NCBI GenBank assembly: GCA_903946925.1
Contig: CAJAXK010000211.1
Coordinates: 1-34,922, forward strand
Reading direction: 5' to 3'
Source: an uncultured Bacteroidales bacterium
GTDB lineage: Bacteria > Bacteroidota > Bacteroidia > Bacteroidales > UBA4417
DNA: 34,922 nt
This document shows, in pieces, positions 2,485 to 34,922 of the stretch (position 1 is the stretch's first letter; each line of letters starts with the position of its first letter). The notes below the pieces were generated by a model. The model saw nothing but the letters and a program-made list of their open reading frames with translations. It ran no database searches and was not told where the DNA came from. A program made the position numbers and the translations under genes.

Positions 2485-2670
2485 CATTAACGATTAGCTA
2501 TTTTCCATTAACCATTTTCAATTAACAATTTTCCATTAACCATTAACCAATTTTCATTAACTAACAACCATTTTCCATTAACTATTCCCCATTAACCATT
2601 CTCTAGCAACCATTTTCCATTAACTATTCTCCATTAACTATTACCAAAAACCATTTTCCATTAACTACTT
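2485..2670. repeat. Degenerate CATTAAC/CCATTTTC tandem array
   Basis: About 185 bp are built from variable copies of CCATTTTC, CATTAAC and TATTC words with uneven spacing, strongly AT-rich and lacking G. The periodicity is loose (units of roughly 13-20 bp), so it is neither a CRISPR nor a clean satellite. It lies just upstream of the alaS promoter box. Confidence 0.75.
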
Positions 2671-2704
2671 TCAATCCCATAAGCGCAAAAATAATTATTT
2701 AACT

Positions 2705-2712
2705 TAAATTTG
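2705..2712 (+). promoter_or_regulatory. Candidate -7 box (TAnnTTTG) for alaS
   Basis: TAAATTTG matches the Bacteroidota -7 consensus. It would give a leader of about 130 nt before the alaS start codon. No clear -33 TTG was seen at the expected distance. Confidence 0.45.
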
Positions 2713-2850
2713 CAGCCATTTGGTTTGTGAACAATTGTTAAAAGCCTTCCAATCTTGGCATTTGCCTTTAAATCCTAACTTTTAAACAACTAAAGTACAA
2801 CTAAATACAAAGCCAGTATCCATAATAATTAAAAGCCATAAAATACTTCA

Positions 2851-5463: not shown

Positions 5464-5804
5464 TTGTTGGTTTGGAATCGTTCAAAGCCTAACATTGATT
5501 CCCACACTTTTTCGAAAACAAAGGTCTTAACAAAAATTTCAATTGATTTAAAATCAATTTGGGAAATACCATAATGCTTTTAAACGAAACGGTTTATAAG
5601 TATCATACTATGAATATGTTGAATCTGCCATATCGTGGGATGTAAACCACATTGGGTCAACTTCCGGAATTCCAACTTAATAGTCACAGTTGATGAAGCC
5701 ATATTAATTCCGGTCATTGGCTTACTGGAAAATCTCAAAAAATGTTGAGAAAAGTTTATCTATATGCTTTGGTCAAAAAAGGTAACCAATCTGGTTGAAA
5801 GCCA
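5464..5804. other. Intergenic space with an AT-rich palindrome
   Basis: This 341-bp space between convergent alaS and the second M23 gene holds no gene I can support. The only structure is a palindrome at 5541-5559: AATTGATTT, a central A, then AAATCAATT. It is too AT-rich and lacks the T-tract of a standard terminator. It could be an operator, a weak bidirectional stop, or chance in AT-rich DNA. Confidence 0.4.
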
Positions 5805-7043
5805 TTATTTTATCAGTTTCAAATTCTTCTCATACAAAACCCTAATAGAATCAAAACTTGCTTTATAACTTGCATCAACAGGCAAGGCTGGAGGCGATTC
5901 AATTTTTAAAGGATCGATAGCTACATTGTTTTTATAAACCCTGAAATCCAGGTGAGCACCGGTCGATAAGCCTGAACTGCCAACATATCCAATAATCTGC
6001 CCTTGGCTTACACTTGCTCCCGGACGGATTCCAGAACCAAATCCAGCAAGATGCATATACGTTGTCGAATACCCGTTGCTATGCCTTATATTGACTAAGC
6101 GGCCGGCCCCACCGGAATAAGATGCCTTTACAACAGTGCCATTCCCGATTGTATGCACAGGTGTACCTTTTGGTGCAGCATAATCAACGCCATGGTGAGG
6201 GCGGCGAATGCGAAGGATGGGATGCATACGGCTATTAGAAAATTTGGATGTGATACGTGAAAATTTTAATGGTGCTTTAAGGAATTCCTTGCGGAGATTC
6301 TGGCCTTTATCATCAAAATAATCGGTAATATTCCGCTGTTCAAAGCGATGTGCGTAGAATTCCTTTCCATTATGGACAAAAATTGCAGAGTGTATTTCCC
6401 CAATACTTATTTGTTTCCCATCAACAGAAAGTTCCTCGTAAATTACTTTGAACGAATCGCCTTTTTGTATGGCATAAAAATCAATTGACCATTGGTAAAT
6501 ATTCGCTAAAGCAACAGCCATATTGGGGTCGGCACCAGCCTGTTGCATGGTAACCCATAACGAAGAATTGATTACGCCCGAAAGGGATTTTAACTGCCGG
6601 CTAACATCCTTGGCATCCTTATGCACATGCAGCGAATCGCGAAAATCGAATATTACATAGCTGGTATCATTGATGGAATAGATGAAATATTTCAGTTTAT
6701 TATCGCCGCCATTGCTCATCATGGCGGTGTAAGTATTGCCACTTTTAAGTTTGCGCAAATCAAAGACACCGTCGGTATATGAATTCAGGTTTCCAACAAA
6801 TTTTTTATCTACACCCAAACGGGTAAGAATACTACCCAGATTCTCACCTGGTTTTACCTCATTACGGTCAATTTTGAATGAATCGGTTACAATGCCATAT
6901 TCGATTGTTTGAGCTATCTTGCGCACAGGATGCACAATAGGTTCAAAAATGAAATCTTTAAAAATAATCAGGGCCGCAACCGAAAGCACAATTGCAATTG
7001 CCAATCCAACAACAAAGCGTATTTTCTTTTTATTTATTTCCAT
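5805..7043 (-). CDS. M23-family metallopeptidase with variant zinc motif
   Basis: This 412-residue protein has an N-terminal membrane segment at about residues 9-28. A LysM/OapA-like periplasmic region follows (IDRNEVKPGENLGSILTRLG, about 59-78), then a long spacer domain, and a C-terminal LytM domain at about 260-380. The layout is that of MepM/YebA-type endopeptidases, which open cross-links during wall growth. The first zinc motif is intact (HHGVD, H283/D287), as is YMHL (H331). The usual HxH motif reads H364-L-D366, so the second histidine, normally a zinc ligand, is aspartate. I recall this HLD form from other Bacteroidota paralogues, so it may still bind metal. A near-consensus -7 box (TATCTTTA, minus strand) lies at 7054-7061. 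The gene is isolated from its neighbours by repeats. Confidence 0.9.
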   Translation of the reverse strand: MEINKKKIRFVVGLAIAIVLSVAALIIFKDFIFEPIVHPVRKIAQTIEYGIVTDSFKIDRNEVKPGENLGSILTRLGVDKKFVGNLNSYTDGVFDLRKLKSGNTYTAMMSNGGDNKLKYFIYSINDTSYVIFDFRDSLHVHKDAKDVSRQLKSLSGVINSSLWVTMQQAGADPNMAVALANIYQWSIDFYAIQKGDSFKVIYEELSVDGKQISIGEIHSAIFVHNGKEFYAHRFEQRNITDYFDDKGQNLRKEFLKAPLKFSRITSKFSNSRMHPILRIRRPHHGVDYAAPKGTPVHTIGNGTVVKASYSGGAGRLVNIRHSNGYSTTYMHLAGFGSGIRPGASVSQGQIIGYVGSSGLSTGAHLDFRVYKNNVAIDPLKIESPPALPVDASYKASFDSIRVLYEKNLKLIK

Positions 7044-7104
7044 TTAATCAAGGTAAAGATATTTAATAGGTTCTTATGTATTTTCTTCTTGTTCAAGGTT
7101 CAAA

Positions 7105-7133
7105 AGCTGGCCACTGAGCTTGTCGAAGTGCGC
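7105..7133. repeat. 29-bp dispersed repeat, copy 2
   Basis: This is identical to 2222-2250 and in the same orientation. In both places it is followed by GTTCAA-type short repeats, so a larger repeat block was probably shared and has since decayed. Confidence 0.85.
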
Positions 7134-7195
7134 GTTCAAGGTTCAAAAAACTTCGGGTTCATACTTCGATAAACCCAATATCAGGCATTCCCGTT

Positions 7196-7268
7196 CATTG
7201 CATTCCCACATTATCGTATTATCACATTATTACATTATCGCATTACAATATTTCCACATCCTCACATT
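7196..7268. repeat. AT-rich CACATTATC-type degenerate tandem array
   Basis: Short variable units of the type CACATTATC and GCATTA repeat with loose spacing. A second block of the same kind is at 7543-7622, so the two arrays flank the hairpin cluster between them. Confidence 0.7.
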
Positions 7269-7287
7269 TTGAGTCCACTCCGAAAAG
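7269..7287. mobile_element. Lone terminal repeat of the MITE-like family (element C, decayed)
   Basis: TTGAGTCCACTCCGAAAAG is identical over 19 bp to the left end of element A. No clean right end follows. A weak candidate at 7525-7542 matches 13 of 18 positions of the inverted end, which would give an element of about 270 bp enclosing the hairpin cluster. Confidence 0.5.
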
Positions 7288-7326
7288 CAGTATGCTCATC
7301 CTGAAATGATTAAACCTCAAAATCCA

Positions 7327-7507
7327 CCAGCTTTGCAATGAGCTGGGACGAATGGTGAAACCAGTCAGTACAACCTCAAAATTAACCAAGCCTTAAAAGG
7401 GCTGGATATTTAGTTTGTTGAAATTCAACCTTTTCAGGGTTGTTCTTTCTCATTTTATTTTACCGTGGGCTTCACCCAAGGGTATTGAAATTTCGCCCTT
7501 TCAGGGC
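7327..7507. repeat. Cluster of short hairpins (REP-like)
   Basis: Five small inverted repeats follow one another: CCAGCT/AGCTGG (7327-7346), AGCC/GGCT (7389-7403), CAACC/GGTTG (7426-7442), TGGG/CCCA (7466-7478) and GCCC/GGGC (7495-7507). The phrases around TGGGCTTCACCCA and GCCCTTTCAGGGC are ones I recall as dispersed repeats in Bacteroidota. No gene is present in this space. Confidence 0.6.
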
Positions 7508-7542
7508 TTTTTCGATGAAATATGTTTTCGAACTGAGCCCAA

Positions 7543-7622
7543 TTTTCACATCCCCAAATCTCCACATTTTCACATTTTCAAATTATCACATTAACAAATT
7601 ATCGCATTAACACATTACCACA
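7543..7622. repeat. AT-rich CACATTAAC-type degenerate tandem array
   Basis: This is the second block of the same kind as 7196-7268, made of CACATTTTC, AAATTATC and CACATTAAC words. It runs up to the iorB stop codon. Confidence 0.7.
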
Positions 7623-8207
7623 TTAATTAAGGTGAGCTTCAGCAAAGTCCCGTCCAGCCTTCAATGCATCGAGGTTGAGTTTCACAACGTCATCACCTTT
7701 ACGGGAAAACATTTTTTCGATTGCACTTTGCAGTTCAGAGTATTCAATTTCGAGAAAAAGCGAAGCTGCCCCTAATATTACCATATTTGCCGACCGTGCC
7801 GAACCGAGCTGTTTTGCAATATTGTCGGCATCGAGGGCTATGTGGTTTTTAAAATGTTCAATTTCAGCCATTATCTCTTCCATTTTTGGATAATTAGGGA
7901 TATTGACAAAGGGTTTAGTATTTGTAATAAGCCAGCCATCAGGGGAAAGGTATGGTAAATATCGCAATGATTCCATAGGCTCAACTGAAATTATCAAATC
8001 GGCTTGACCAAATGGGATTAAATCGGACGCTATTTCGTGGTCGGCAATACGAAGGTTCGACGAAACATCGCCTCCTCTTTGGCTCATGCCATGCACTTCG
8101 GCTTGCTTAAGGTGCAATCCGGTGTTTAACGCTGCCATGCCAATAGTAGTAGCTATGGATAGGATGCCCTGTCCTCCAACTCCGGCAAGAATAATATCTC
8201 GTTTCAT
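7623..8207 (-). CDS. iorB: Indolepyruvate:ferredoxin oxidoreductase, beta subunit
   Basis: This 194-residue protein is a gamma-type 2-oxoacid oxidoreductase domain. It opens with the nucleotide-binding-like GVGGQGILSIATTIG and continues with HGMSQRGGDVSSNLRI, both diagnostic of IorB. With IorA it oxidatively decarboxylates aryl pyruvates (indolepyruvate, phenylpyruvate) to acyl-CoA, passing electrons to ferredoxin, as a cytoplasmic step in aromatic amino acid fermentation or reverse synthesis. It is near the usual length of about 190-200. It lies 168 bp downstream of iorA on the same strand. No promoter box was found in that gap, so it is probably expressed from the iorA promoter. Confidence 0.93.
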   Translation of the reverse strand: MKRDIILAGVGGQGILSIATTIGMAALNTGLHLKQAEVHGMSQRGGDVSSNLRIADHEIASDLIPFGQADLIISVEPMESLRYLPYLSPDGWLITNTKPFVNIPNYPKMEEIMAEIEHFKNHIALDADNIAKQLGSARSANMVILGAASLFLEIEYSELQSAIEKMFSRKGDDVVKLNLDALKAGRDFAEAHLN

Positions 8208-8375
8208 GTTGTTTGTTTTTTGTAAGCTGATTATAAGTTTGATTTTTAGAAAGATACAGTCAGCGGTTTGTGATATATGCCATTTGCCGACTTCCGATTG
8301 CCTGTTTCAGGTATTCAAGGTTGGGTATTGATTGTAAAACAGAGCTTTGTACTTTTAGTATTTGGACAAACAATT

Positions 8376-9989
8376 TTAAACCACCTCTGCTTTTTTAAGA
8401 GCTTTGTGGTGCTTTACGGCTGTTTGGATACATTCGCGCCTTGGGATAATAACCGAAACCCCCGTGTATTCGAGCTCTTGTTTTAAAATACCAAGGTTTT
8501 TCTCATGATATTTTGGCGAAGGATCCAGAACGAAAATATGATCTTTTTCAACCCCAACGCCTATGCAAATATCTTCAATCCTTCCAAATGCCGATGAATC
8601 CTGCCCACCGGTCATAGCAGTGGTTTCATTATCCAGAATCATAATTGTTATTTGGTTTTTATCTTTCACACAATCAATTAGTCCGGTTATTCCGCTATGG
8701 GTAAAAGTGCTATCGCCGATTACAGCTACCGCCGGGAGCAGTCCGGCATCTGCTGCACCTTTGGCCATTGTAATTGAGGCACCCATATCAACACATGTAT
8801 TTATGGCGTCAAAAGGGTCGAGGGCGCCAAGCGTGTAGCAGCCAATATCCGAAAAAACCCTGCCTTTGCTCCATTTTTCAAGAGCTTCGTTCAATGCATT
8901 GTACGAATAAATATGAGGACAACCTTTACAGAGCGAAGGTGGCCTTCCGGCAACAATCGAAGGAATTTCTTTTCCACGTGTATCTTTTTTCCCAAGGGCA
9001 ACGGCAACTATATTCGGGTTTAGTTCACCATCGCGGGGAACGGTGCCATCCAATCGTCCAAGAATGGTTTTGCCATTATCCATGAAACCTTTGATTGCTT
9101 CTTCAACAACGGGATATCCTTCTTCGAGGATAAGCAGTTTTTCGCATGAATTGTAAATTTCGGACACCATTGCATGAGGCAAGGGATATTGCGCAATTTT
9201 TAGTACCGGAAATGGAATATGGCGGTCAGGATAATTTTCGAGTAAGTAGTTGTAAGCTATACCTGTAGTAATTATACCCATGCTTTTATCTTCACCATCG
9301 GTAAAAACGTTGAAACCCGATTCTGATGCATATTTTTCAAATTCGGTTTGCTTTTGCAACAAGCTTTTATATTGGCGGCGGGCATTTGCTGGCAAAAGGA
9401 TAAATTGCCTTGGATTATCCGGTAGCCGGATTTCGTTTTGCTTACGGGTGGGTTTACGTAAAATACCTGCCCGTGAATGGGCCAAACGGGTAGTGATGCG
9501 CATTAAAACAGGAACTCCCAGCTTTTCCGACATATCGAAACCATAAAAAACCATATCATAAGCATCTTGCTGATTGGTTGGTTCCAAAACGGGAAGCAAA
9601 GCAAATTTGCCATACACGCGTGAGTCCTGTTCATTTTGCGATGAGTGCATCGAAGGGTCGTCAGCAGATACCACAATCAAACCACCATTTGCACCGGTAA
9701 TTGCTGAATTCATAAATACATCGGCAGCAACGTTAAGCCCGACATGTTTCATGCAAACCATGGTCCGCTTTCCTGCATACGACATTCCGAGTGCAGATTC
9801 CATTGCAGTTTTTTCATTCGTTGACCAGCCTGCCCTGATTTTCCCGGATTTTGCTTCCTTCGATTGCATTACATATTCAGTAATTTCGGTCGAGGGTGTA
9901 CCTGGATATGCGTAAATGCCTGACATCCCTGCATCTATAGCAGCTTGGGCAATAGCTTCGTCGCCAAGCAACATTAATTTTTGGTCCAT
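8376..9989 (-). CDS. iorA: Indolepyruvate:ferredoxin oxidoreductase, alpha subunit (short form)
   Basis: This 537-residue catalytic subunit has an N-terminal pyrimidine-binding domain (GIYAYPGTPSTEI, then KTAMESALGMSYAGKRTM). The C-terminal thiamine-diphosphate domain carries CKGCPH near residue 353 and the TPP motif GDSTFTHSG to LDNETTAMTGG at about 425-460. Archaeal IorA is roughly 100 residues longer because it ends in a two-cluster ferredoxin domain. Here the protein stops after RRECIQTAVKH and a short basic tail, with no CxxCxxC cluster, so electrons must go straight from the enzyme to an external carrier. Short forms seem usual in Bacteroidota, from memory. It is followed by iorB. A good promoter lies 33 bp upstream. 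Confidence 0.94.
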   Translation of the reverse strand: MDQKLMLLGDEAIAQAAIDAGMSGIYAYPGTPSTEITEYVMQSKEAKSGKIRAGWSTNEKTAMESALGMSYAGKRTMVCMKHVGLNVAADVFMNSAITGANGGLIVVSADDPSMHSSQNEQDSRVYGKFALLPVLEPTNQQDAYDMVFYGFDMSEKLGVPVLMRITTRLAHSRAGILRKPTRKQNEIRLPDNPRQFILLPANARRQYKSLLQKQTEFEKYASESGFNVFTDGEDKSMGIITTGIAYNYLLENYPDRHIPFPVLKIAQYPLPHAMVSEIYNSCEKLLILEEGYPVVEEAIKGFMDNGKTILGRLDGTVPRDGELNPNIVAVALGKKDTRGKEIPSIVAGRPPSLCKGCPHIYSYNALNEALEKWSKGRVFSDIGCYTLGALDPFDAINTCVDMGASITMAKGAADAGLLPAVAVIGDSTFTHSGITGLIDCVKDKNQITIMILDNETTAMTGGQDSSAFGRIEDICIGVGVEKDHIFVLDPSPKYHEKNLGILKQELEYTGVSVIIPRRECIQTAVKHHKALKKAEVV

Positions 9990-10400
9990 ATTGTTAGTTT
10001 TTTAACAGCACTATTTATGGCACAAACCTACATGAATTGAACCTTATTAACAAGCACTTTTAAAAATAATAGTACAAAAAATCTGAATAGCGGCAGCAAC
10101 ATTAGCAGAAGAAAATTGGATGTTTTGAACACCCTTGCATTTCAGGTGTTTATTGGTTATTCCCTTTGAAGACTCAAAATAAATTATCGGTTTTTTTAAG
10201 GGAATCAGTAAGTAGCAAGCCGTAAATGTGTTTTTTCCACCTTCTACCTGATTGAGGTTAATGAAAGTACTTGAAGGAAATTAGTGATGTTTTTGTAGGT
10301 TAGAAGGTCGTTTTTACGAAGGGTTTTGACTGTAATCTGCCGAAATTTATTTCCCTTGCAAAAAATAGAATTACAACAATTACCCAAAAAGCAGCCTGTT
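9990..10400. other. Intergenic space between divergent iorA and the AcpH-like gene
   Basis: This space holds the iorA promoter near its left end and otherwise AT-rich sequence in which I see no gene, repeat or hairpin. The frame of the right-hand gene stays open back to a TTG at 10326, but family length argues that this part is leader rather than coding. Confidence 0.5.
10023..10053 (-). promoter_or_regulatory. iorA promoter (Bacteroidota -33/-7)
   Basis: On the minus strand TAGGTTTG (10023-10030) is an exact TAnnTTTG box. A TTG (10051-10053) lies 20 bp upstream, the expected spacing. The leader to the iorA ATG would be about 28 nt. Confidence 0.65.
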
Positions 10401-10982
10401 TTGAATTATTTAGCACACCTTTTTCTTGCCGGAAACCATCCTGAAACCATTTTGGGTAACTTTATTGCCGATCATGTTAAAGGCAGCAATATTTTAAATT
10501 TTTCCGAAAAAACCAGGAACGGAATAGCCATGCATAGGGCTATTGATGCTTTTACCGATCAACATCCCGTTGTAAAACAGAGTATATTGCGGTTACGCAG
10601 CGATTTTAGCAAATATTCGGGTGTGATAGTTGATATGTATTACGATCATTTTCTTTCGGCTAATTGGGAAGAATATTCTGGTATCGACATCCACACTTTT
10701 ACCAAATCAAGGTACGATGTTTTAAATTCATTTCAAACCATTCTTCCTTCACGTTCGGCTAAGCTGCTTTATTTTATGGAAAAGCAGAACTGGTTGCTTT
10801 CGTATGGTAGTTTGGACGGGATGCAACAAGCTTTTAACGGCATGTCGAGGCGCACAACCTTTGAATCAAAAATGGAATTGGCGGTTGGAAACCTCGAAGC
10901 CGGATATTTGGAATTTAAACATGAATTCAGTTTGTTTTTTCCTGATTTGCAACAATATGTAAAAAATAATTTCGAGGTATAG
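10401..10982 (+). CDS. AcpH-like acyl carrier protein phosphodiesterase (DUF479)
   Basis: Read from the TTG at 10401, the protein is 193 residues, the length of E. coli AcpH. It begins directly with the family's N-terminal signature NYLAHLFLAGNHPETILGNF, followed by IADHVKG. Other hallmarks are the His/Asp-rich metal-dependent hydrolase motifs HRAIDAFTDQHP and VDMYYDHFLSANW. The family removes 4'-phosphopantetheine from holo-ACP in the cytoplasm. The frame extends upstream to another TTG at 10326, adding 25 residues with no family counterpart, so I prefer 10401. No ATG fits. It faces citrate synthase and shares a bidirectional terminator with it. Substrate specificity outside gamma-proteobacteria is poorly established, so the ACP substrate is an inference. 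Confidence 0.85.
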   Translation: MNYLAHLFLAGNHPETILGNFIADHVKGSNILNFSEKTRNGIAMHRAIDAFTDQHPVVKQSILRLRSDFSKYSGVIVDMYYDHFLSANWEEYSGIDIHTFTKSRYDVLNSFQTILPSRSAKLLYFMEKQNWLLSYGSLDGMQQAFNGMSRRTTFESKMELAVGNLEAGYLEFKHEFSLFFPDLQQYVKNNFEV

Positions 10983-10989
10983 AAGAATT

Positions 10990-11022
10990 AAAAAAGCCAC
11001 CCTGATATTGAGTGGCTTTTTT
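10990..11022. terminator. Bidirectional intrinsic terminator
   Basis: The stem AAAAAAGCCAC/GTGGCTTTTTT is perfect over 11 bp with an 11-nt loop. A T-tract on either strand lets it stop both the AcpH-like gene (plus) and citrate synthase (minus). Confidence 0.9.
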
Positions 11023-11041
11023 CAAATCATATAACAGAATT

Positions 11042-12370
11042 TTAATCCTCAATAATTACTTCCTTGCCTGCTGCAATATCTTCGAGAATGGCTGTGGTTA
11101 TTGACTTAGGCCTTTCCAAAGGATAACCAAGTGCACGATCCCAAATAAGATTGGCAGTGATACCTATTGCGCGTCCTATACCAAACAGTACGGTGTAAAA
11201 ATCGTATTCCTTTACACCATAATGCCATTGTATAACACCTGATTGGGCATCAACATTTGGCCATGGATTTTTAGCTTTGCCCTGGGCAAGTAAAATATCA
11301 GGCACCACTTTATACAACATATCTGTATATTTGAACATCAGATCGTCCTTCATGTGGATGGTCGCGAAATTGTGCTGCAAGGTATATCGTGGATCGGTTT
11401 TGCGTAATACGGCATGTCCGTAACCGGGTATTACCTGTCCTGATTTTAGCGTATCCCAAACAAATTTCTTCATATCTTCTTCGGTTGGTTCACGGTCTTC
11501 CATTTTTTCAATAACACCCTGAAGCCATCTGAGCACTTCCTGGTTGGCAAGTCCATGCAAAGGACCAGCTAATCCATTAACCATGGCGGCGATGCTCAAG
11601 TAAATATCTGATAACGAACTGGAAACCAAATGGCCTGTGTGTGCACTAACATTACCGCCTTCATGGTCGGCATGAATAATAAAGTGCATACGGCTTACAT
11701 CATCATAAGGTTTGCCGATTCCCATCATGTGGGCGAAGTTTGCACCAAAATCGAGGTATGGATTCGATTGTATCCTTTTGCCATCGCGATAAAGCTTAGC
11801 GTAAATATAGGTAGCAATTTCAGGCATCTTTGCCAAAAGGTTCAATGCATCCTCATAAGTAGGATCCCAATAATCAAGCTTATGCAATTTGCCCGAAGCA
11901 TATTTTTTAGCAAACAGCGATTCTCTCTGCAAAGTTGTGATTACGGCCGAAAATATCGCCATCGGATGGCTGCAGCATGGCATTCCATCAATAACTTCGT
12001 AAACATACCTTGGCAGGATGCGGCGTTTGTTAAATTCATCAATTACATCCTGTAATTCTTCTTCGTTTGGGATATCACCGGTAACAAGCAGGTAAAAAAG
12101 ACCTTCAACATAAGGCATTTCAGCACCTTTAGGCTTAGGTAGTTTTTCAAACACTTCCGGAAGTGTGAGGCCACGGTACCTAATGCCCTCATTTGGATCG
12201 AGGTACGAAATATCGGTGAGTAAAACTTTTACTCCGCGCATTCCACCAATAACCTGACCTATGGTTACCTGATCGATAACCACATGCCCATGTTCTTTAA
12301 GCAGTTTTTCAGTACGTGGGCGCCAGGCCAATATTTTCTCGTGTAGTCTGTCTTTTAGTCTGAATGACAT
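11042..12370 (-). CDS. Citrate synthase, mitochondrial-type
   Basis: This 442-residue enzyme condenses oxaloacetate with acetyl-CoA to citrate, the first step of the oxidative TCA branch. It belongs to the eukaryotic mitochondrial-like lineage rather than the GltA type, as shown by the block GPLHGLANQEVLRWLQ and by NPWPNVDAQSGV. The catalytic triad is complete: H272 (PLHG), H319 (PGYGHA) and D374 (NVDAQSG), equivalent to pig H274, H320 and D375. Substrate-binding HADHEGGNVSAHTGH is also present. It lies 218 bp downstream of icd on the same strand, so the two TCA enzymes probably form a unit; a separate promoter in the gap was not identified. The terminator follows the stop codon closely. Confidence 0.96.
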   Translation of the reverse strand: MSFRLKDRLHEKILAWRPRTEKLLKEHGHVVIDQVTIGQVIGGMRGVKVLLTDISYLDPNEGIRYRGLTLPEVFEKLPKPKGAEMPYVEGLFYLLVTGDIPNEEELQDVIDEFNKRRILPRYVYEVIDGMPCCSHPMAIFSAVITTLQRESLFAKKYASGKLHKLDYWDPTYEDALNLLAKMPEIATYIYAKLYRDGKRIQSNPYLDFGANFAHMMGIGKPYDDVSRMHFIIHADHEGGNVSAHTGHLVSSSLSDIYLSIAAMVNGLAGPLHGLANQEVLRWLQGVIEKMEDREPTEEDMKKFVWDTLKSGQVIPGYGHAVLRKTDPRYTLQHNFATIHMKDDLMFKYTDMLYKVVPDILLAQGKAKNPWPNVDAQSGVIQWHYGVKEYDFYTVLFGIGRAIGITANLIWDRALGYPLERPKSITTAILEDIAAGKEVIIED

Positions 12371-28867: not shown

Positions 28868-29030
28868 GAGATTAACCAAGTATTTAGGGCCTGTCAATAA
28901 AGTGAAGTTTTATTTTTACGGATTAGGGTTGACGATTATAACCCGCTGAAAATAAATCGTACAATTCGACAAACTCAGTGTGAAAATCGTAATTCGAAAT
29001 TTGTTCATTTTGAATTAAACCAAGAAATTA
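28868..29030. other. Non-coding host flank with an inverted repeat copy
   Basis: This AT-rich space has no gene I can support. It contains an inverted, one-mismatch copy (TTCGACAAACTCAGTG, 28965-28980) of the dispersed repeat seen at 2229 and 7112. No terminator-like hairpin follows the kinase gene. Confidence 0.5.
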
Positions 29031-29108
29031 AAACAAGTAAATAAAACAAGTAAATAAAACAAGTAAATAAAACAAGTAAATAAAACAAGTAAATAAAACA
29101 AGTAAATA
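29031..29108. repeat. Perfect 13-bp tandem repeat, six copies
   Basis: The unit AAACAAGTAAATA repeats six times without a mismatch, from 29031 to 29108. There are no spacers, so it is not a CRISPR. It lies 30 bp outside the tRNA remnant that marks the edge of the mobile element. Uniform copies suggest recent slippage expansion. Confidence 0.95.
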
Positions 29109-29138
29109 AGCACATTCTATAATGCCCTATCAACTCCG

Positions 29139-29163
29139 TGCGTTGTACTGGACTCGAACCAGT
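29139..29163 (-). other. tRNA 3'-end remnant, probable attachment site of the element
   Basis: On the minus strand a canonical T-arm (ACTGG, loop TTCGAGT, CCAGT) is followed by a seven-base acceptor strand (ACAACGC) and discriminator A. CCA is not encoded. The rest of a tRNA is absent: no D-arm, anticodon arm or GCGTTGT 5' acceptor strand occurs on the right side. A lone 3' end is what remains when an element integrates into a tRNA gene. The whole tRNA would then stand at the far end of the element, outside the window, on the minus strand. The amino acid cannot be told. Confidence 0.7.
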
Positions 29164-29463
29164 GACTCTTTTTTGTGCATTTTGAAAACCTAATTAATTG
29201 ATTATCATTACGTTAATTTTTCCATTTTTGCCCCTTTTGGCACGATTTTGGACGAGGTCCAAATTCATATTATCCACTATTTACATACTTTTCAGCTTGT
29301 TCGTCTTCTCGTTAATTCACTAATTTTTAAAATTCGCGACAAAAAATTTCTTACTTTGTTCTATCAATATCGCTTCCTGTTTTTTAAGAAAGTTCCCGCT
29401 TCAAAATTGAATATCTAAACCATCATATTCACTAACATCTCAAAACCTCTTTAACCAGTATCA
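29164..29463. other. Left end of the mobile element, non-coding
   Basis: About 300 bp between the tRNA remnant and the repressor gene carry no supported gene. An integrase was looked for on both strands and not found. The space is AT-rich with a short more GC-rich island around 29231-29260. Confidence 0.5.
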
Positions 29464-29886
29464 TTATTCCACTTTATTATTTCTATTCTTTGTAACCAAA
29501 TAATTAATCGATTCACTATTTATATATTGCATGCGTAAAAGTTCCGTTACTTGATTTTTCAATTCCTTGTTTTGTTTAAGGATTTTCAAATATTCTTCTT
29601 TTGAATATGAAATATCTGTTATATCTATTTCATTTTCTATAATTTCCGAATCCATCGGTTGGCTTTTTTCAATAAACATTCCACCTTCACCAGTTAATAT
29701 CCATGATTTACTAATTTCGGGGAATGTCTCCACTATTTTTGCCGCAACTTTGAAATTTAATGGCCTTGTTCCATTTATAAAATCATAGATCGTTTTCCCT
29801 TTTGCATAACCTATCTTCTTAGCAAAAGCATTTGGAGTTAATTTCTTCCAATCAACTACCATTTTAATTCTTTCTTTATCAGTCAT
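29464..29886 (-). CDS. Phage-type HTH repressor (CI-like)
   Basis: This 140-residue protein has an N-terminal XRE/CI-type helix-turn-helix at about 16-45 (PNAFAKKIGYAKGKTIYDFI) and then FPEISKSWILTGEGGMFIEK. The WxLTGEGxM phrase is typical of Bacteroidota phage and integrative-element repressors. The C-terminal third (about 90-130) is a helical region, probably a coiled coil for dimerisation (KEEYLKILKQNKELKNQVTE). There is no S24 peptidase domain, so release would not follow LexA-style self-cleavage. It is divergent from the small HTH gene across a 152-bp operator region and is likely the regulator of the element's genes. Confidence 0.85.
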   Translation of the reverse strand: MTDKERIKMVVDWKKLTPNAFAKKIGYAKGKTIYDFINGTRPLNFKVAAKIVETFPEISKSWILTGEGGMFIEKSQPMDSEIIENEIDITDISYSKEEYLKILKQNKELKNQVTELLRMQYINSESINYLVTKNRNNKVE

Positions 29887-29955
29887 TTAAAAAGATATTA
29901 ACTTATTTTGAGAAATAAAATGACATATTTCGCATAAACATGACATTATTTGCCG

Positions 29956-29963
29956 TACTTTTG
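29956..29963 (+). promoter_or_regulatory. -7 box for the rightward genes of the element
   Basis: TACTTTTG matches TAnnTTTG and points right. It lies only 13 bp from the leftward -7 box, so the two promoters would compete. Confidence 0.45.
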
Positions 29964-29976
29964 ATGAATATTATCA

Positions 29977-29984
29977 CAAAGATA
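29977..29984 (-). promoter_or_regulatory. -7 box for the repressor gene
   Basis: On the minus strand TATCTTTG is an exact TAnnTTTG box, about 90 bp before the repressor ATG. It abuts the operator repeats that begin at 29985. Confidence 0.5.
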
Positions 29985-30013
29985 GTACATTTTCAGTACA
30001 TTTATGTACATTT
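29985..30013. promoter_or_regulatory. Probable operator: GTACATTT repeats and a palindrome
   Basis: GTACATTT-type half-sites begin at 29985 and 29996, with an ATGTACATTT at 30004, so spacing is 10-11 bp, about one helical turn. GTACAT-TT-ATGTAC at 29996-30009 is a perfect palindrome. A further weak half-site (ACACATTT) follows. The position between divergent promoters fits binding by the repressor or the small HTH protein. Confidence 0.6.
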
Positions 30014-30038
30014 TTAACACATTTATGCAAAAAAAAAC

Positions 30039-30254
30039 ATGATAAATATCGAAGAACTTAAAAAATTGCGCGAATCACTCCCTAAAGACTTTGCCTCTCA
30101 AATCGAATCAAAAACCGGTCTTTCTCCATCAACTATTTACAAAGTAATAGCTGGTGAACGCAACAATACTAAAATTATTGATGCTGCTATTGATCTTGCA
30201 AAAGAGCAAAAAATAAAATTAGAATTACAGAAACAAGCTATTGGGAAGCTTTAA
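30039..30254 (+). CDS. Small HTH protein (Cro-like)
   Basis: This 71-residue protein is nearly all helix. The stretch KDFASQIESKTGLSPSTIYK (about 16-35) is a helix-turn-helix, followed by VIAGERNNTKIIDAAIDLAK. It has the size and position of a Cro-type regulator, first gene of the rightward unit and divergent from a CI-like repressor. No other domain is present. The functional name rests on context and the HTH pattern. Confidence 0.75.
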   Translation: MINIEELKKLRESLPKDFASQIESKTGLSPSTIYKVIAGERNNTKIIDAAIDLAKEQKIKLELQKQAIGKL

Positions 30255-30268
30255 CAACAACAATTTTT

Positions 30269-30439
30269 ATGAGCAAGAAACGATCCTTCCTTCTCAAATA
30301 TTCAATAATAGAAAACGAAATTGAATATCCCCGCGAACTCGTGGTAAAACAAGTTGTGAATAAAATACAAGCCGAAAATAAACTTCGCGCTTTATGTAGC
30401 ACTGAAATCATAATCACTTCTAATACCGAAATTTTATGA
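30269..30439 (+). CDS. Hypothetical 56-residue protein of the element
   Basis: An ATG at 30269 opens a 56-codon frame (MSKKRSFLLKYSIIENEIEY, then PRELVVKQVV) that ends in a TGA overlapping the ATG of the next gene (ATGA at 30436-30439). The overlap and the 14-bp distance from the HTH gene argue that it is truly translated and coupled. It is charged, without a membrane segment or a family I recognise. Confidence 0.65.
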   Translation: MSKKRSFLLKYSIIENEIEYPRELVVKQVVNKIQAENKLRALCSTEIIITSNTEIL

Positions 30440-30630
30440 ACGCTTTTATCCTGGGATCAATCCCGCTCATAACCATAAATAAAAAATATTTGGAAATCGC
30501 AGCTACTAATTTAATGATGCTTCGCGATCAAACTCCCAACCTATCAGAAATTGATGCTTTCAATAAAGAAATAAATACCCTTATTTCATTGGTGGATCAA
30601 TGCGATTCCGTCTTAAAAACACTCGAATAA
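30436..30630 (+). CDS. Hypothetical 64-residue protein of the element
   Basis: This starts inside the stop codon of the preceding gene, so the two are translationally coupled. The product is small and mostly helical (YLEIAATNLMMLRDQ, EIDAFNKEINTLISLVDQC), with no membrane segment and no family I recognise. It is the last gene before the 221-bp non-coding interval holding the possible structured RNA. Confidence 0.65.
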   Translation: MNAFILGSIPLITINKKYLEIAATNLMMLRDQTPNLSEIDAFNKEINTLISLVDQCDSVLKTLE

Positions 30631-30663
30631 ATATAAAATATTTTTTACCCCACTTTTCAAAAA

Positions 30664-30771
30664 CGTCGGGGCATTAGAAGGTTCACTGTCTTGAGCCAGT
30701 TTTGCAATGATGAATGGCAATGTTTGTGGTTGTATAAACCGTAAATCAAACCCTTGTCTGCTCCCCCGACG
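30664..30771 (+). ncRNA. Possible structured RNA (multibranched fold)
   Basis: CGTCGGGG (30664-30671) is the exact complement of CCCCGACG (30764-30771), closing a loop of 92 nt. Inside, three further hairpins can form in order: GGTTCA with TGAGCC, TTGC with GCAA, and GGTT with AACC. The interval has no gene and is more GC-rich than its surroundings. A closing stem with several internal arms is what a structured RNA or an origin-type ssDNA fold would show. It matches no RNA family I recognise, and pairing was assessed by eye. Confidence 0.4.
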
Positions 30772-30817
30772 GCCTTTTCCTAAAGGTATGTTAACGAGCC
30801 AATTGCATTAGGACTGA

Positions 30818-30845
30818 CCCCGATAATTCGGGGCCCTTACTGGGC
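30818..30845 (+). promoter_or_regulatory. Two adjoining hairpins in the leader of the SSB-like gene
   Basis: CCCCGA-TAAT-TCGGGG (30818-30833) is a perfect 6-bp stem. GCCC-TTACT-GGGC (30833-30845) follows, sharing one base. They end 6 bp before the ATG at 30852. No T-tract follows, so they may control translation or mark processing rather than terminate. Confidence 0.5.
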
Positions 30846-30851
30846 TTAATA

Positions 30852-31517
30852 ATGTCATTCTCAAATTCTCTCATTTCACAATTTTCAAATTTTTTCTCCA
30901 TGCTAGAAAATTCGTCTGAAAACAGAACGTATGTCAGTGTTATTGATGGAAAATTCACCATCCGCGCTGAGAAATCAACACCAAAAGCAAAAGAACGCCA
31001 GAATAAAAACGGCGTTTTAGTATATGAACTTCAATTCGATACTATTTCAGGGATGCTGGAAAATGTTTTGGATCAAAAAACCGAAAATCAATATGGCACC
31101 TTTCGAAACATCGTTCTTATTATCCGGGATAACAGCGAATTGTATAATGTCTCTATACCTTACTCTTCCCGGGAATCAAAAGGTATTTTAATGCGCCTCC
31201 CCCACGCCGATCTTTCAAAACAGATCAAATTCAAAATCGCTAAAAAAGATCATGCTTTTACCTGGATAACTCAAAATGATAGTACCATTCCGCTAAAATG
31301 GACAAAAGAGAATCCGGGAGAATTGCCAGGAATGGTTGAAGTTGAAATAAAAGGGAAGAAAACCTTCGACGATACCCTGCAAATGAAATACCTATTCGAT
31401 TTTATTCAACAAAACGTACTATCAAAAATCAATTCCCAGTCCACAGAACAGGGTTTTAACAGCCCACCACTTCCCGCAAATGATCTATCTGCCACAGACG
31501 ATGATCTCCCGTTTTGA
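30852..31517 (+). CDS. Candidate single-stranded DNA-binding protein with DDDLPF tail
   Basis: This 221-residue protein has no recognised family but ends exactly in DDDLPF (residues 216-221), the acidic tip by which bacterial SSB recruits its partners. The tip follows a flexible, Pro/Ser/Asn-rich linker (about 195-215), again as in SSB. The body (about 25-175) alternates short beta-like strands, such as TYVSVIDGKFTIRAE, NIVLIIRD and MVEVEIKG, compatible with an OB-like or other beta fold. The usual SSB N-terminal signature is absent. It lies 68 bp upstream of the primase-ATPase gene. The SSB-like role is inferred from tail and context, not from the fold. Confidence 0.55.
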   Translation: MSFSNSLISQFSNFFSMLENSSENRTYVSVIDGKFTIRAEKSTPKAKERQNKNGVLVYELQFDTISGMLENVLDQKTENQYGTFRNIVLIIRDNSELYNVSIPYSSRESKGILMRLPHADLSKQIKFKIAKKDHAFTWITQNDSTIPLKWTKENPGELPGMVEVEIKGKKTFDDTLQMKYLFDFIQQNVLSKINSQSTEQGFNSPPLPANDLSATDDDLPF

Positions 31518-31585
31518 TCCTCACTTATAATGCTATTTTTTTTCTCTGGTATCTAAAATTGTAAAACAACGCATATACTTAAGTA

Positions 31586-34500
31586 ATGATAACTAATGAA
31601 AGTGAAATAAAAGATGCCATTCAGATTTACGACATAATTTCTGATTTCGTTACTCTAAAAAAAAAAGGCTCAAATTACAGCGGATGCTGCCCATTTCACA
31701 ACGAACGTACACCCAGCTTTGTAGTTTTTACAAGTTCAAATTCGTATAAATGTTTTGGTTGCGGAGAGTCGGGGGATGCTATCAGATTCCTTGAAAAACA
31801 CGAGCAGCAAACCTATTCAGAATCTCTAACCTACATCGCAAACCGATATTCTATAGCCATTGTTGAAAGCAATGCATCTCCCAAACACCAGGAAGAAAAA
31901 ACTAAAAAAGAAGCCATACTGGCTGCCAATAAATTCGCCGCTCAGCATTTCACCGAAAATCTCCTGAAAAACGAATCTGCCATTCAATATCTTTCTCAGC
32001 GCCAACTTCTCGATGCCATTTCCCCCTATTCCCTGGGCTACTCCGAAACAGGCAATGCTCTCATGCGAGCTGCAGCTTCTGCCGGGTATAGTCTGGATAT
32101 CCTGTTTGAAGCCGGGCTGATCAATAAAAACGAACAGGGCATTTATTATGATGCCTTCTCCCGCAGGATCATGTTCCCTTTTCTGGACCGTTCCGGCCGC
32201 ATAATCGGTTTTACCGGACGAATCCTTACCGGTGAAAAAGACAAACCCAAATACATCAACACCAAAGAAACAGAAGTTTTCAGCAAAAGCAAATTCCTAT
32301 ATGGCCTGTACCAGGCCAGAAAAGCTATTTCAGACGAAAAAGAATGTTTCTTGGTCGAAGGCCAAACGGACACCATCAGTTTATTCCTGGCAGGGATAAA
32401 AAATTCCGTAGCCGGTTCCGGTACCGCCCTGAGTGAAACTCAGGTCAGAATGATAAATACCCTTACTACATGCCTTACTTTCGTTTATGACGACGACCCC
32501 GCCGGTATCAGGGCCAGTATCGCAAATATCAAATTACCCTTACAGGCCGGTTTGGATGTGTATATTGTCGTGCTGCCTAAAAACGAAGATCCCGACTCCT
32601 TTGTAAAAAATGCTGGTGCCGAAGCTGTTAAAGCATACCTCGAATTACACAGGAAAAACCTCGTTTCTTTTCGCATCAACCTGATAAAAGAAGAAGTCAC
32701 AAAGGATATCCTGCAAAAAGCAAGGCTGGTAAAAGAACTTACGGCACAAATCTCCCTCATTCCAGACGAACAAACCCGGGGTATTTTAATCCGGGAAATT
32801 TGTTCTCAACTGGAAGTAAATATAGACGACCTTACCACCCAGGTAAAAAAAGCACTCCCAAAACCTATCGTTGATACTGAAAAAGGTTTCTATGGTTTTG
32901 AAGCTTCAAAAGACGGGATAAAAGCAAAAAATGAAGTCATTATCCTGCCGGATCCTTCCGAAGTGGTAAATCGTCATGCCTCCGGCATTGACAATGTTAT
33001 TGGCCTCCCTCATGGAGCTTTCGCAAAAGAGGAAATCTTCAACCTATCCAACCTTACCAAAAATGTAATCATTGAAGGGCTGGAAAAAGTTGTTGATTCT
33101 TCTGATTCTGAAACACTGCTGTCCATGGTTGGCCGCCAGCTAACAGAATTTGGATTGCATGTAGTCGTTCGTGCTGAACCTGATATAGATAATAAGACCG
33201 GCGAAGTTACTTATAGATCTACCGATTTCCTCGATTTCTATGTCGATTCACTTGCTCATTATTTAAACCACCACCCCGACACCAAACGCTCAAAAAAATA
33301 CGTCGAATTGGTCGCTGAATTTCTTAGCAAACTGGATAACACTATTATCCATATTAAAACAACGGATATTGCCAGGAAATTCAACCTCACTCAAACCGCT
33401 TTCAGCAAAGTACTGAAACCCTTTGTCGAAAAACGTAAAAACCTCGCTTCTCAACAACAGGAAAAAGTGGTTATCGATGAACTTCATTACGTTTTCGATA
33501 TCAACCATATTCCGGAATATGTGGACCTGGACTTCTTCCAGCGTAACGGCTTCTTCCCCGCCCAAAACAAAACCGGAAACAAAATATTTTACGTTTTCCG
33601 CACCCTGGACAACACACTTGTCAAAGTGGCCAACTTTTACATGGAACCTCTTTTTCAGGTTTTTGATCACGATCCCAATAAAAACAAGCGCATCGTAAAA
33701 CTCTACCACGCTGATCTCAACAGGGAAGAATATGTCGAGTTTAAAAGCTGGGATATGATCGAGTTAACCCCCTTTAAAAAATTCCTTTGGGGTTACGGCC
33801 CTTATATATTTTCAAATGGCAAACAATTTCATCACGAAAAAATAATCAACAGCATGTCTATGTTTTTCCCTAAATGCAACGAGCTTTCAGTGTATGGATG
33901 GCAGCCGGAAGGCTTCTTTGCTTTCTGCAATGGCATCATTGCCGATGGCCATTTCACACCTGTGGACGACCTCGGGCTGGTAACGTTTAAAAAAGAAACG
34001 TACTACCTGCCGGCGTTCTCAAAAATCTACAAAAACGAACGCGAAGATAACGACCGCTATCAGTACGACCGCGCCCTGGTTTTCAGGCCGGATCAAAATA
34101 CCTTATGGATCGATTGGGCTACATTAATGATGAAGGTCTATTCCTACAATAACAATGGAATGTGGGCAATCCTTTTTACCATGCTTGCCGCTCACAGATC
34201 CGTCATTTTTCAAATTGACCGACTTTTCACCGCCTTGTTTTTTATTGGCCCCACTGAATCCGGAAAATCAAAAATAGCTGAGAGCATCCGTGCACCATAC
34301 ATGCACGGTGCACCGCTTTTCAACCTCAATTCCGGTACGGATGCCGCTTTCTTCACCACGCTTGAAAGGTTACGGGATATTCCGGTAATCCTGGAAGAAT
34401 ACAACGACAACCAGATTTCTCCCATTAAATTCCAGGGCCTCAAAGCTGCAGTGTATGACAACGAAGGAAAACAAAAACGCAAAGATGCTACCAGTAAGGA

Positions 34501-34922
34501 CATTGATGTAAGCAAGGTCAATTGCTCACCGATATTGCTTGGTCAGGAAGCTCCCGAAAAGGACGACGGTTCTTTACAAAACCGCGTCGTTCTTCTTCCG
34601 GTACCCAAAAAAGATAACTGGACGGATGAAGAAGTAAACCTCTTTAAGGACTTGAAAGATCGGGAAGCAGAAGGCTTGAGTAATATCGCAGTAGAGATAA
34701 TAAAACGCCGACCGCTGATCATTCAGCACTTCGCCAAATATACCCGCGAATACCAAAAACAAGTTAAACAGGACATTATTAAAGACGGTGGATTATACCA
34801 AACCGGGAGTGTTCACAGAACTGTGTCTGCCTTATATTTTCTTAGAGACGATTTACGCCTGCCTTTTAGGATATTTCTCGCAGATTGGCAAGGGTGGCGA
34901 GGAACGAAGCCATTTATATACC
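31586..34922 (+). CDS. Primase-ATPase fusion: CHC2 zinc finger, TOPRIM and C-terminal P-loop ATPase (runs off the right edge)
   Basis: The frame is open from the ATG at 31586 to the end of the window (1112 complete codons, no stop). It begins with a DnaG-type zinc finger (C35, H38, C56, C59: CPFHNERTPSF, YKCFGCGESGDAI). A DnaG catalytic core follows, with TOPRIM residues E258 in VEGQTD and D302/D304 in YDDDPAG, and the LPKNEDPDSFVKNAG stretch typical of primases. The middle part (about 420-860) has a winged-helix-like IKTTDIARKFNLTQTAFSKV but is otherwise unrecognised. A P-loop ATPase comes last: Walker A GPTESGKS (888-895), Walker B-like IPVILEEY (E937/E938), and NCSPILLGQE as a sensor-like strand. 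This would make RNA primers and act at a fork for the element's replication. The ATPase subtype is not certain. Confidence 0.88.
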   Translation, partial: MITNESEIKDAIQIYDIISDFVTLKKKGSNYSGCCPFHNERTPSFVVFTSSNSYKCFGCGESGDAIRFLEKHEQQTYSESLTYIANRYSIAIVESNASPKHQEEKTKKEAILAANKFAAQHFTENLLKNESAIQYLSQRQLLDAISPYSLGYSETGNALMRAAASAGYSLDILFEAGLINKNEQGIYYDAFSRRIMFPFLDRSGRIIGFTGRILTGEKDKPKYINTKETEVFSKSKFLYGLYQARKAISDEKECFLVEGQTDTISLFLAGIKNSVAGSGTALSETQVRMINTLTTCLTFVYDDDPAGIRASIANIKLPLQAGLDVYIVVLPKNEDPDSFVKNAGAEAVKAYLELHRKNLVSFRINLIKEEVTKDILQKARLVKELTAQISLIPDEQTRGILIREICSQLEVNIDDLTTQVKKALPKPIVDTEKGFYGFEASKDGIKAKNEVIILPDPSEVVNRHASGIDNVIGLPHGAFAKEEIFNLSNLTKNVIIEGLEKVVDSSDSETLLSMVGRQLTEFGLHVVVRAEPDIDNKTGEVTYRSTDFLDFYVDSLAHYLNHHPDTKRSKKYVELVAEFLSKLDNTIIHIKTTDIARKFNLTQTAFSKVLKPFVEKRKNLASQQQEKVVIDELHYVFDINHIPEYVDLDFFQRNGFFPAQNKTGNKIFYVFRTLDNTLVKVANFYMEPLFQVFDHDPNKNKRIVKLYHADLNREEYVEFKSWDMIELTPFKKFLWGYGPYIFSNGKQFHHEKIINSMSMFFPKCNELSVYGWQPEGFFAFCNGIIADGHFTPVDDLGLVTFKKETYYLPAFSKIYKNEREDNDRYQYDRALVFRPDQNTLWIDWATLMMKVYSYNNNGMWAILFTMLAAHRSVIFQIDRLFTALFFIGPTESGKSKIAESIRAPYMHGAPLFNLNSGTDAAFFTTLERLRDIPVILEEYNDNQISPIKFQGLKAAVYDNEGKQKRKDATSKDIDVSKVNCSPILLGQEAPEKDDGSLQNRVVLLPVPKKDNWTDEEVNLFKDLKDREAEGLSNIAVEIIKRRPLIIQHFAKYTREYQKQVKQDIIKDGGLYQTGSVHRTVSALYFLRDDLRLPFRIFLADWQGWRGTKPFIY

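Follow-up and report, generated by a model that had tools for sequence, protein, structure and literature searches.

What kind of element occupies the right-hand end of contig C211, one of 498 contigs in a 6.17-Mb assembly from an uncultured Bacteroidales bacterium? This contig of 34,922 bp was analyzed whole and is called the window here; its genome is labelled G000. The first 25.9 kb hold what we take, from the translations, to be core chromosomal genes (alanyl-tRNA synthetase, citrate synthase, isocitrate dehydrogenase and others), and the last 5.8 kb begin with a fragment of a tRNA gene and continue with genes for a repressor, several small proteins, a protein with an SSB-type tail and a primase fused to an ATPase. 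A preliminary description of this DNA recognized an integrative element ending at a tRNA 3' end and left undecided whether it was a prophage, a satellite or an integrative plasmid. We present evidence that it is a temperate tailed phage inserted at tRNA-Val(GAC), with C211, continued on contig C278, and contig C462 as its two ends, and with an IS256-type insertion sequence (IS) in its primase gene, so that this copy is probably a defective prophage. We assign this reading a probability of about 0.92.

The attachment site provides the first line of evidence. When the 6.17-Mb genome was searched with the 37-bp block at 29130-29166, a 100% match was found at one other place, C462:6178-6214. An intact tRNA-Val(GAC) gene lies at C462:6131-6206 with its 3' end in the block, which extends 8 bp beyond the tRNA end; past the block, the window and C462 diverge. 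The tyrosine integrase frame of C462 begins at 6278 or 6284, 72-78 bases after the tRNA. The lone T-arm and acceptor strand reported earlier at 29139-29163 is therefore real, with a common block of 37 bp rather than the 25 bp claimed, and the intact tRNA with the same 3' end and the neighbouring tyrosine integrase that the preliminary description expected were both found, on another contig of the same genome. A direct repeat of a tRNA 3' end flanking the element and a tyrosine integrase beside the attachment site, features by which a prophage is recognized, are thus both present. The integrase is the single copy of its kind in G000, and none of this type was found in the six tested genomes that carry the related uncultured Bacteroidales loci described below. 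G002, the closest relative, has after the same tRNA an integrase that shares 85% identity with that of C462; only the tRNA side of that element is present.

The second line of evidence comes from the opposite end of the window, which breaks off within a repeated IS; this explains why contig C211 stops where it does. Contig C37, which carries an identical copy of the IS end, encodes a mutator-type transposase (Transposase_mut, PF00872; E 5.7e-96). The other IS end stands at the start of C278, followed by the remainder of the primase gene, and a 9-bp target duplication (34796-34804) is common to the window and C278. Among the 12 pairings of four right-end with three left-end flanks, a duplication is seen in two: 9 bp for window/C278 and 8 bp for C283/C313. 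Since the window is linked to C278, the insertion splits the primase gene behind codon 1073, and what continues in frame past that point is IS-derived. The primase-ATPase fusion proposed earlier holds as far as its CHC2, DnaG_N and Toprim domains and Walker A motif are concerned, whereas the open frame beyond 34804 is insertion sequence and not primase; the replication module, described as self-contained, is also broken in this assembly. It is because of this interruption that we regard the copy as probably defective. For annotators the locus carries a warning, as an open frame running off a contig end may be an insertion sequence read in frame.

Behind the primase remainder, C278 carries an 82-amino-acid (aa) gene and one resembling nucleoside deoxyribosyltransferases (phrog_355, 9.1e-22); four genes that match no family come next, then a head maturation protease (phrog_53, 4.8e-55) and the beginning of one more gene. 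The protease is a virion-morphogenesis gene, and because the locus continues through the IS into a contig that carries it, we read the element as a prophage and not as a satellite, an integrative and conjugative element (ICE) or a plasmid. The last gene of C278 gave no family match and resembles the gene that follows the protease in the related loci L010, L100, L103 and L104 (38.6% over 70 aa); by position only, it corresponds to the capsid gene of the Porphyromonas gingivalis phage record BK068100.1.

A repressor, a Cro-like gene and a primase-ATPase near an attachment site are also usual in phage satellites of the phage-inducible chromosomal island (PICI) or P4 type, which have their own integrase, repressor and primase, lack virion genes and are packaged by a helper. 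This gene set, together with the presence in G000 of other related prophages that could serve as helpers, speaks for a satellite. However, the primase here runs on in C278 to a head maturation protease and a capsid-position gene, genes that a satellite should lack, and the gene order is that of full phage records of 42-50 kb; we consider a satellite very improbable. Likewise, a tRNA site, a tyrosine integrase and replication genes also occur in ICEs and integrative plasmids, and an element of that sort with a phage-like control and replication module would share them with the locus. Against this, the head protease adjoins the primase, the primase and integrase match phages, and neither a relaxase nor a transfer gene was noticed in the approximately 14 kb seen, in which no dedicated search was made; the likelihood of an ICE or plasmid appears to us close to negligible. 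The earlier suggestion of a satellite or ICE-like unit bringing its own SSB-like protein and primase consequently finds no support beside the head maturation protease of C278, and of the three alternatives left undecided the prophage stands.

Comparison with phage records also supports the prophage, because its modules agree with those of P. gingivalis prophages in kind and order. Relatives of the primase occur in 267 phage records, 32 of which matched over at least 80% of the query; 18 come from P. gingivalis phages, with 34-36% identity across 94-98% of the query. The integrase matches 42 records, including the same 18 (34-37% over 93-98%). All 18 encode the primase in plus orientation in their first 8.1 kb and carry the integrase at the opposite end, in minus orientation. 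BK068100.1 reads in order repressor (minus strand), small early genes, primase, prohead protease, capsid, terminase, portal, tail, endolysin, spanin and integrase (minus strand), and the head protease of C278 is 33% identical to its counterpart there over 219 aa. After the integrase of C462, on the opposite strand, a gene at 7950-8492 encodes a lipoprotein-like product with a C-terminal membrane helix that we read as resembling a unimolecular spanin; it has no family match, nor does it match the spanin of BK068100.1. The fecal phage record MT835875.1 (16 kb) holds in one stretch an integrase (minus strand), a gene read as repressor-like (minus strand), small plus-strand genes and the primase (plus strand), as they would be expected to lie once the C462 and window ends were joined across attP.

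Several observations weigh against this reading. C211/C278 and C462 are not joined by the assembly, and their pairing relies on the shared 37-bp block, on gene order and on there being a single integrase. The GC content (39.3% vs 38.7%) does not set the element apart. Six same-genus loci that lack an integrase and extend more than 2 kb past the tRNA were compared over the first 6 kb listed, and in five of them tRNA-Val is followed by an iron-sulfur protein gene; in G000 that gene is found on C225, next to other genes, and the 16 kb fetched there contain no tRNA remnant. The window flank instead carries a sensor-kinase gene whose relatives lie elsewhere. Because the chromosomal flank of the window differs from the block after this tRNA in relatives, a rearrangement in this lineage must be assumed. 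Of the 15 same-genus genomes searched, 10 supplied one locus each, and all 10 loci have a dipeptidyl-peptidase gene next to tRNA-Val; a proof by empty site was tried on this basis and abandoned, as relatives keep the dipeptidyl-peptidase side while their other flank is unlike the window and the flanks are not joined. Finally, the terminase relatives in G000 (C175, C160 and C219) share at most 37% identity and are not tied to this element. The gene order on the chromosomal side of the window is, on the other hand, not one common to relatives; the preliminary description had named as a refutation a gene order kept as stable core genome in relatives that have no tRNA junction.

The unlike flank is also what favours a different account, in which the 37-bp block of the window is the remnant of an older integration, or a secondary site near the sensor-kinase gene, and C462 belongs to a different element. 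The block, however, has two copies only in the genome, which holds one integrase of this kind, and the integrase, primase and protease come from one phage lineage. We judge separate elements improbable, although somewhat less so than a satellite.

For a single prophage with its ends on C462 and C211/C278, the following course of events may be proposed. The tyrosine integrase of a temperate tailed phage would have catalysed recombination between attP and the tRNA-Val(GAC) 3' end, leaving the intact tRNA beside the integrase (C462) and the 37-bp remnant on the repressor side (29130-29166). The repressor (29464-29886) would silence the rightward early operon by occupying the boxes at 29985-30013; induction would lead to synthesis, from this operon, of the Cro-like protein, the products of both tiny genes, the SSB-tailed protein and the primase-ATPase, which would copy the phage genome. 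The IS256-type element would have jumped into the primase gene later. The tRNA pair, the integrase, the IS with its target duplication, the primase and the head protease are seen in the sequence itself, whereas the union of C211/C278 and C462 in one element, repression at the boxes, induction and loss of function are what we infer. The features are listed in Table 1.

Table 1. Features of the element in the window and on contig C462 (window positions unless a contig is named).
Feature	Position	Strand	Evidence or remark
Attachment-site repeat, attR side: last part of tRNA-Val(GAC) and 8 bp beyond	29130..29166	-	37 bp identical to C462:6178-6214
CI-like repressor, 140 aa	29464..29886	-	four PHROG transcription-regulation families, best 1.2e-10
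Candidate operator, three GTACATTT boxes at 29985, 29996 and 30006	29985..30013		spacing 11 and 10 bp; putative function
Cro-like early protein, 71 aa	30039..30254	+	45% over 58 aa to L105 early gene, E 8e-10; role suggested by position
Tiny early gene 1, 56 aa	30269..30439	+	aa identity 98% G000:C326, 96% G002:C275, 68% G011:C829
Tiny early gene 2, 64 aa	30436..30630	+	86-92% aa identity to G000:C326, G002:C275, G011:C829 and G000:C337 copies
Conserved intergenic stretch, candidate RNA or replication element	30645..30829	+	identity to G011
Protein with SSB-type acidic tip, 221 aa	30852..31517	+	ends DDDLPF
Primase (CHC2 zinc finger, DnaG_N, Toprim) fused to P-loop ATPase	31586..34804	+	N-terminal 1073 codons; Pfam, PHROGs, NCBIfam
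Right end of IS256-type insertion sequence	34805..34922		118 bp identical to C37 and C196, 78 bp to C283
Tyrosine integrase	C462:6284-7483		PF00589 4.1e-9; phrog_1 1.3e-23

The control region agrees with the preliminary description. The CI-like repressor belongs with PHROG transcription-regulation families, and no match to it was found in Pfam or NCBIfam. The candidate divergent operator consists of the GTACATTT boxes, of which the 34.9-kb window holds only three copies, all between the repressor and Cro-like genes; it is because of this placement that we read the boxes as an operator, and the natural, if putative, reading is that of the repressor. Three copies per window are not unusual, being reached in 38 of 100 shuffles, and it is their clustering within 29 bp that is unusual. 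The Cro-like protein that follows resembles an early gene product of L105 and has no family match in Pfam, PHROG or NCBIfam. The two tiny genes behind it are coupled by a 4-bp overlap and have close copies in other contigs: the pair is near-identical among C211, C326 and G002:C275 (96-98% and 89-92% aa identity) amid divergent neighbours, as would be expected from module exchange. The tiny-gene pair and the SSB-tailed gene were found in same-genus copies only.

The stretch between the second tiny gene and the SSB-tailed gene is the most unusual part of the element. Compared with G011, a further relative that served as the source of the DNA comparison, 97 of 100 bases are identical at 30645-30744 and 47 of 50 (94%) at 30780-30829, whereas identity is 73.1% in tiny gene 1, 84.1% in tiny gene 2 and 78.2% in the SSB-tailed gene, and drops to 16 of 23 aligned columns (70%) at 30830-30851. 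The G011 contigs break inside the stretch and lack 30745-30779, so that the middle lies outside the comparison. These values, from the one pair formed by the window and G011, suggest that the stretch is more constrained than the genes on either side.

The structured RNA raised as a possibility in the preliminary description gains from this conservation in one relative and loses from the folding energy of 30645-30850, which is not significant on either strand (z -1.57 and -1.72; minus strand -1.63), and from the lack of an Rfam match. No homologs of the stretch were found in phages or plasmids, and four exact-word scans of viral contigs gave 0, 1, 15 and 0 matches, none convincing. The single match fell within coding sequence on an unrelated contig; an nhmmer profile search backed none of the 15, the best of which (L156; E 2.2) was judged chance. 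Two weak matches besides the own genome among 393 genomes of the order, a sample evidently without G011, were also attributed to chance; one lies in what reads as a ribosomal S12 gene and the other in AT-rich intergenic DNA. That 30645-30829 is a new phage-borne element, either a structured RNA regulating the early operon or a replication origin for the SSB-tailed protein and the primase-ATPase, is a tentative proposal that we consider rather unlikely. Of the whole element, this stretch alone would be of wider interest, should it prove to act as an RNA or an origin.

The tail claimed for the SSB-tailed protein is present, the sequence ending in the acidic tip DDDLPF. The protein is 75.6% identical to its G011 copy, whose tip is EDLPY, and weakly matches a protein of Cellulophaga phage phi46:1 (24%, E 6e-4); no sequence match was found in Pfam, PHROG, NCBIfam or PDB, and no relatives among viral contigs. 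In the primase-ATPase, the Walker A sequence GPTESGKS is invariant in 11 aligned relatives. A predicted structure of the ATPase was poor (mean pLDDT 35.9) and was discarded. The related primase genes of L010 and L100 are uninterrupted. A further observation concerns the end of the primase itself, which in 9 of 14 homologs read is PF after an acidic residue, similar to an SSB tip (e.g. DDDLPF on C278). These nine are C278 (L058:144-866), C153 (L049:1-1671), L010, L100, L101, L103, L104, L107 and L109; the PF end is not seen in L105, L106, L108 (ending LPY), BK068100.1 or C337. In the limited library searched, no paper was found that dealt with SSB-type tips of primases or with a prophage at tRNA-Val in lake Bacteroidales.

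G000 holds other phage DNA of this kind. A second early module and its primase are represented in part on C326 and C153 (69% and 82% identical), and C337 (L113, G000:C337:1-8138) represents a third related prophage, with late genes 72-97% identical to those of C278 and a primase 30-39% identical to that of the window. As the late genes are alike and the primase divergent, replication and late modules recombine separately. Downstream of the primase remainder of the second prophage, L049 (G000:C153:1-12000) contains a candidate defence gene at 5101-7728 (PDC-S06, 8.4e-290) and a type III-A retron pair, a phosphoribosyltransferase (9875-11287, 1e-127) and a reverse transcriptase (11445-12000, 7.8e-75) cut at the stretch end. 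C160 (L146, G000:C160:1-18513) and C219 (L147, G000:C219:16000-22514) begin or end with apparently the same terminase C-terminus, after which C160 carries mad2/mad6/mad8-like and methyltransferase genes and C219 a gene for a type I restriction enzyme. In these prophages, defence genes may have a hotspot just 3' of the terminase. In L134 (G011:C829:8000-15069), the same early genes follow a tRNA-Lys(CTT) at 2302-2377 and a short frame at 2592-3026, read as a putative integrase fragment. On the chromosomal side of the attachment block, a 13-bp tandem repeat of the AAACAAGTAAATA type runs in register for approximately seven copies (window 29013-29122); most of the 39 genome matches of this segment are related intergenic sequence.

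The IS has the mutator-type transposase and the 8- and 9-bp target duplications of the IS256 family, to which it can be assigned; nothing notable sets it apart. Related prophages and phage contigs are known from records of uncultured Bacteroidales, L010 and L011 from IMG/VR and L100-L109 from GTDB genomes (L102 probably being the same contig as G011:C543). Their primases are 41-76% identical to that of the window and their head proteases, in nine of these loci, 32-43% identical to that of C278; in L100 the early module begins 1.3 kb after a tRNA-Arg. Among described phages, a P. gingivalis group present in 17 strains and inserted at tRNA-Pro has been proposed as Nixviridae (PMC10367356), and records BK068097-BK068113 and PP754931 appear, from their number and integrases, to represent it. 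The element shares with these prophages insertion at a tRNA 3' end and the order of primase, prohead protease and integrase, with protease and order read in BK068100.1 only. It differs in its SSB-tailed gene and conserved intergenic stretch, which were not found in the P. gingivalis prophages, in the IS that interrupts its primase and in its host, another Bacteroidales genus. Because its site is tRNA-Val(GAC) and not the tRNA-Pro by which that paper characterizes the group, we regard it as a relative and not a member of the proposed Nixviridae. A prophage lineage so far described mainly from an oral bacterium is thus now found in uncultured Bacteroidales, whose related records bear lake-sample names, at another tRNA target.

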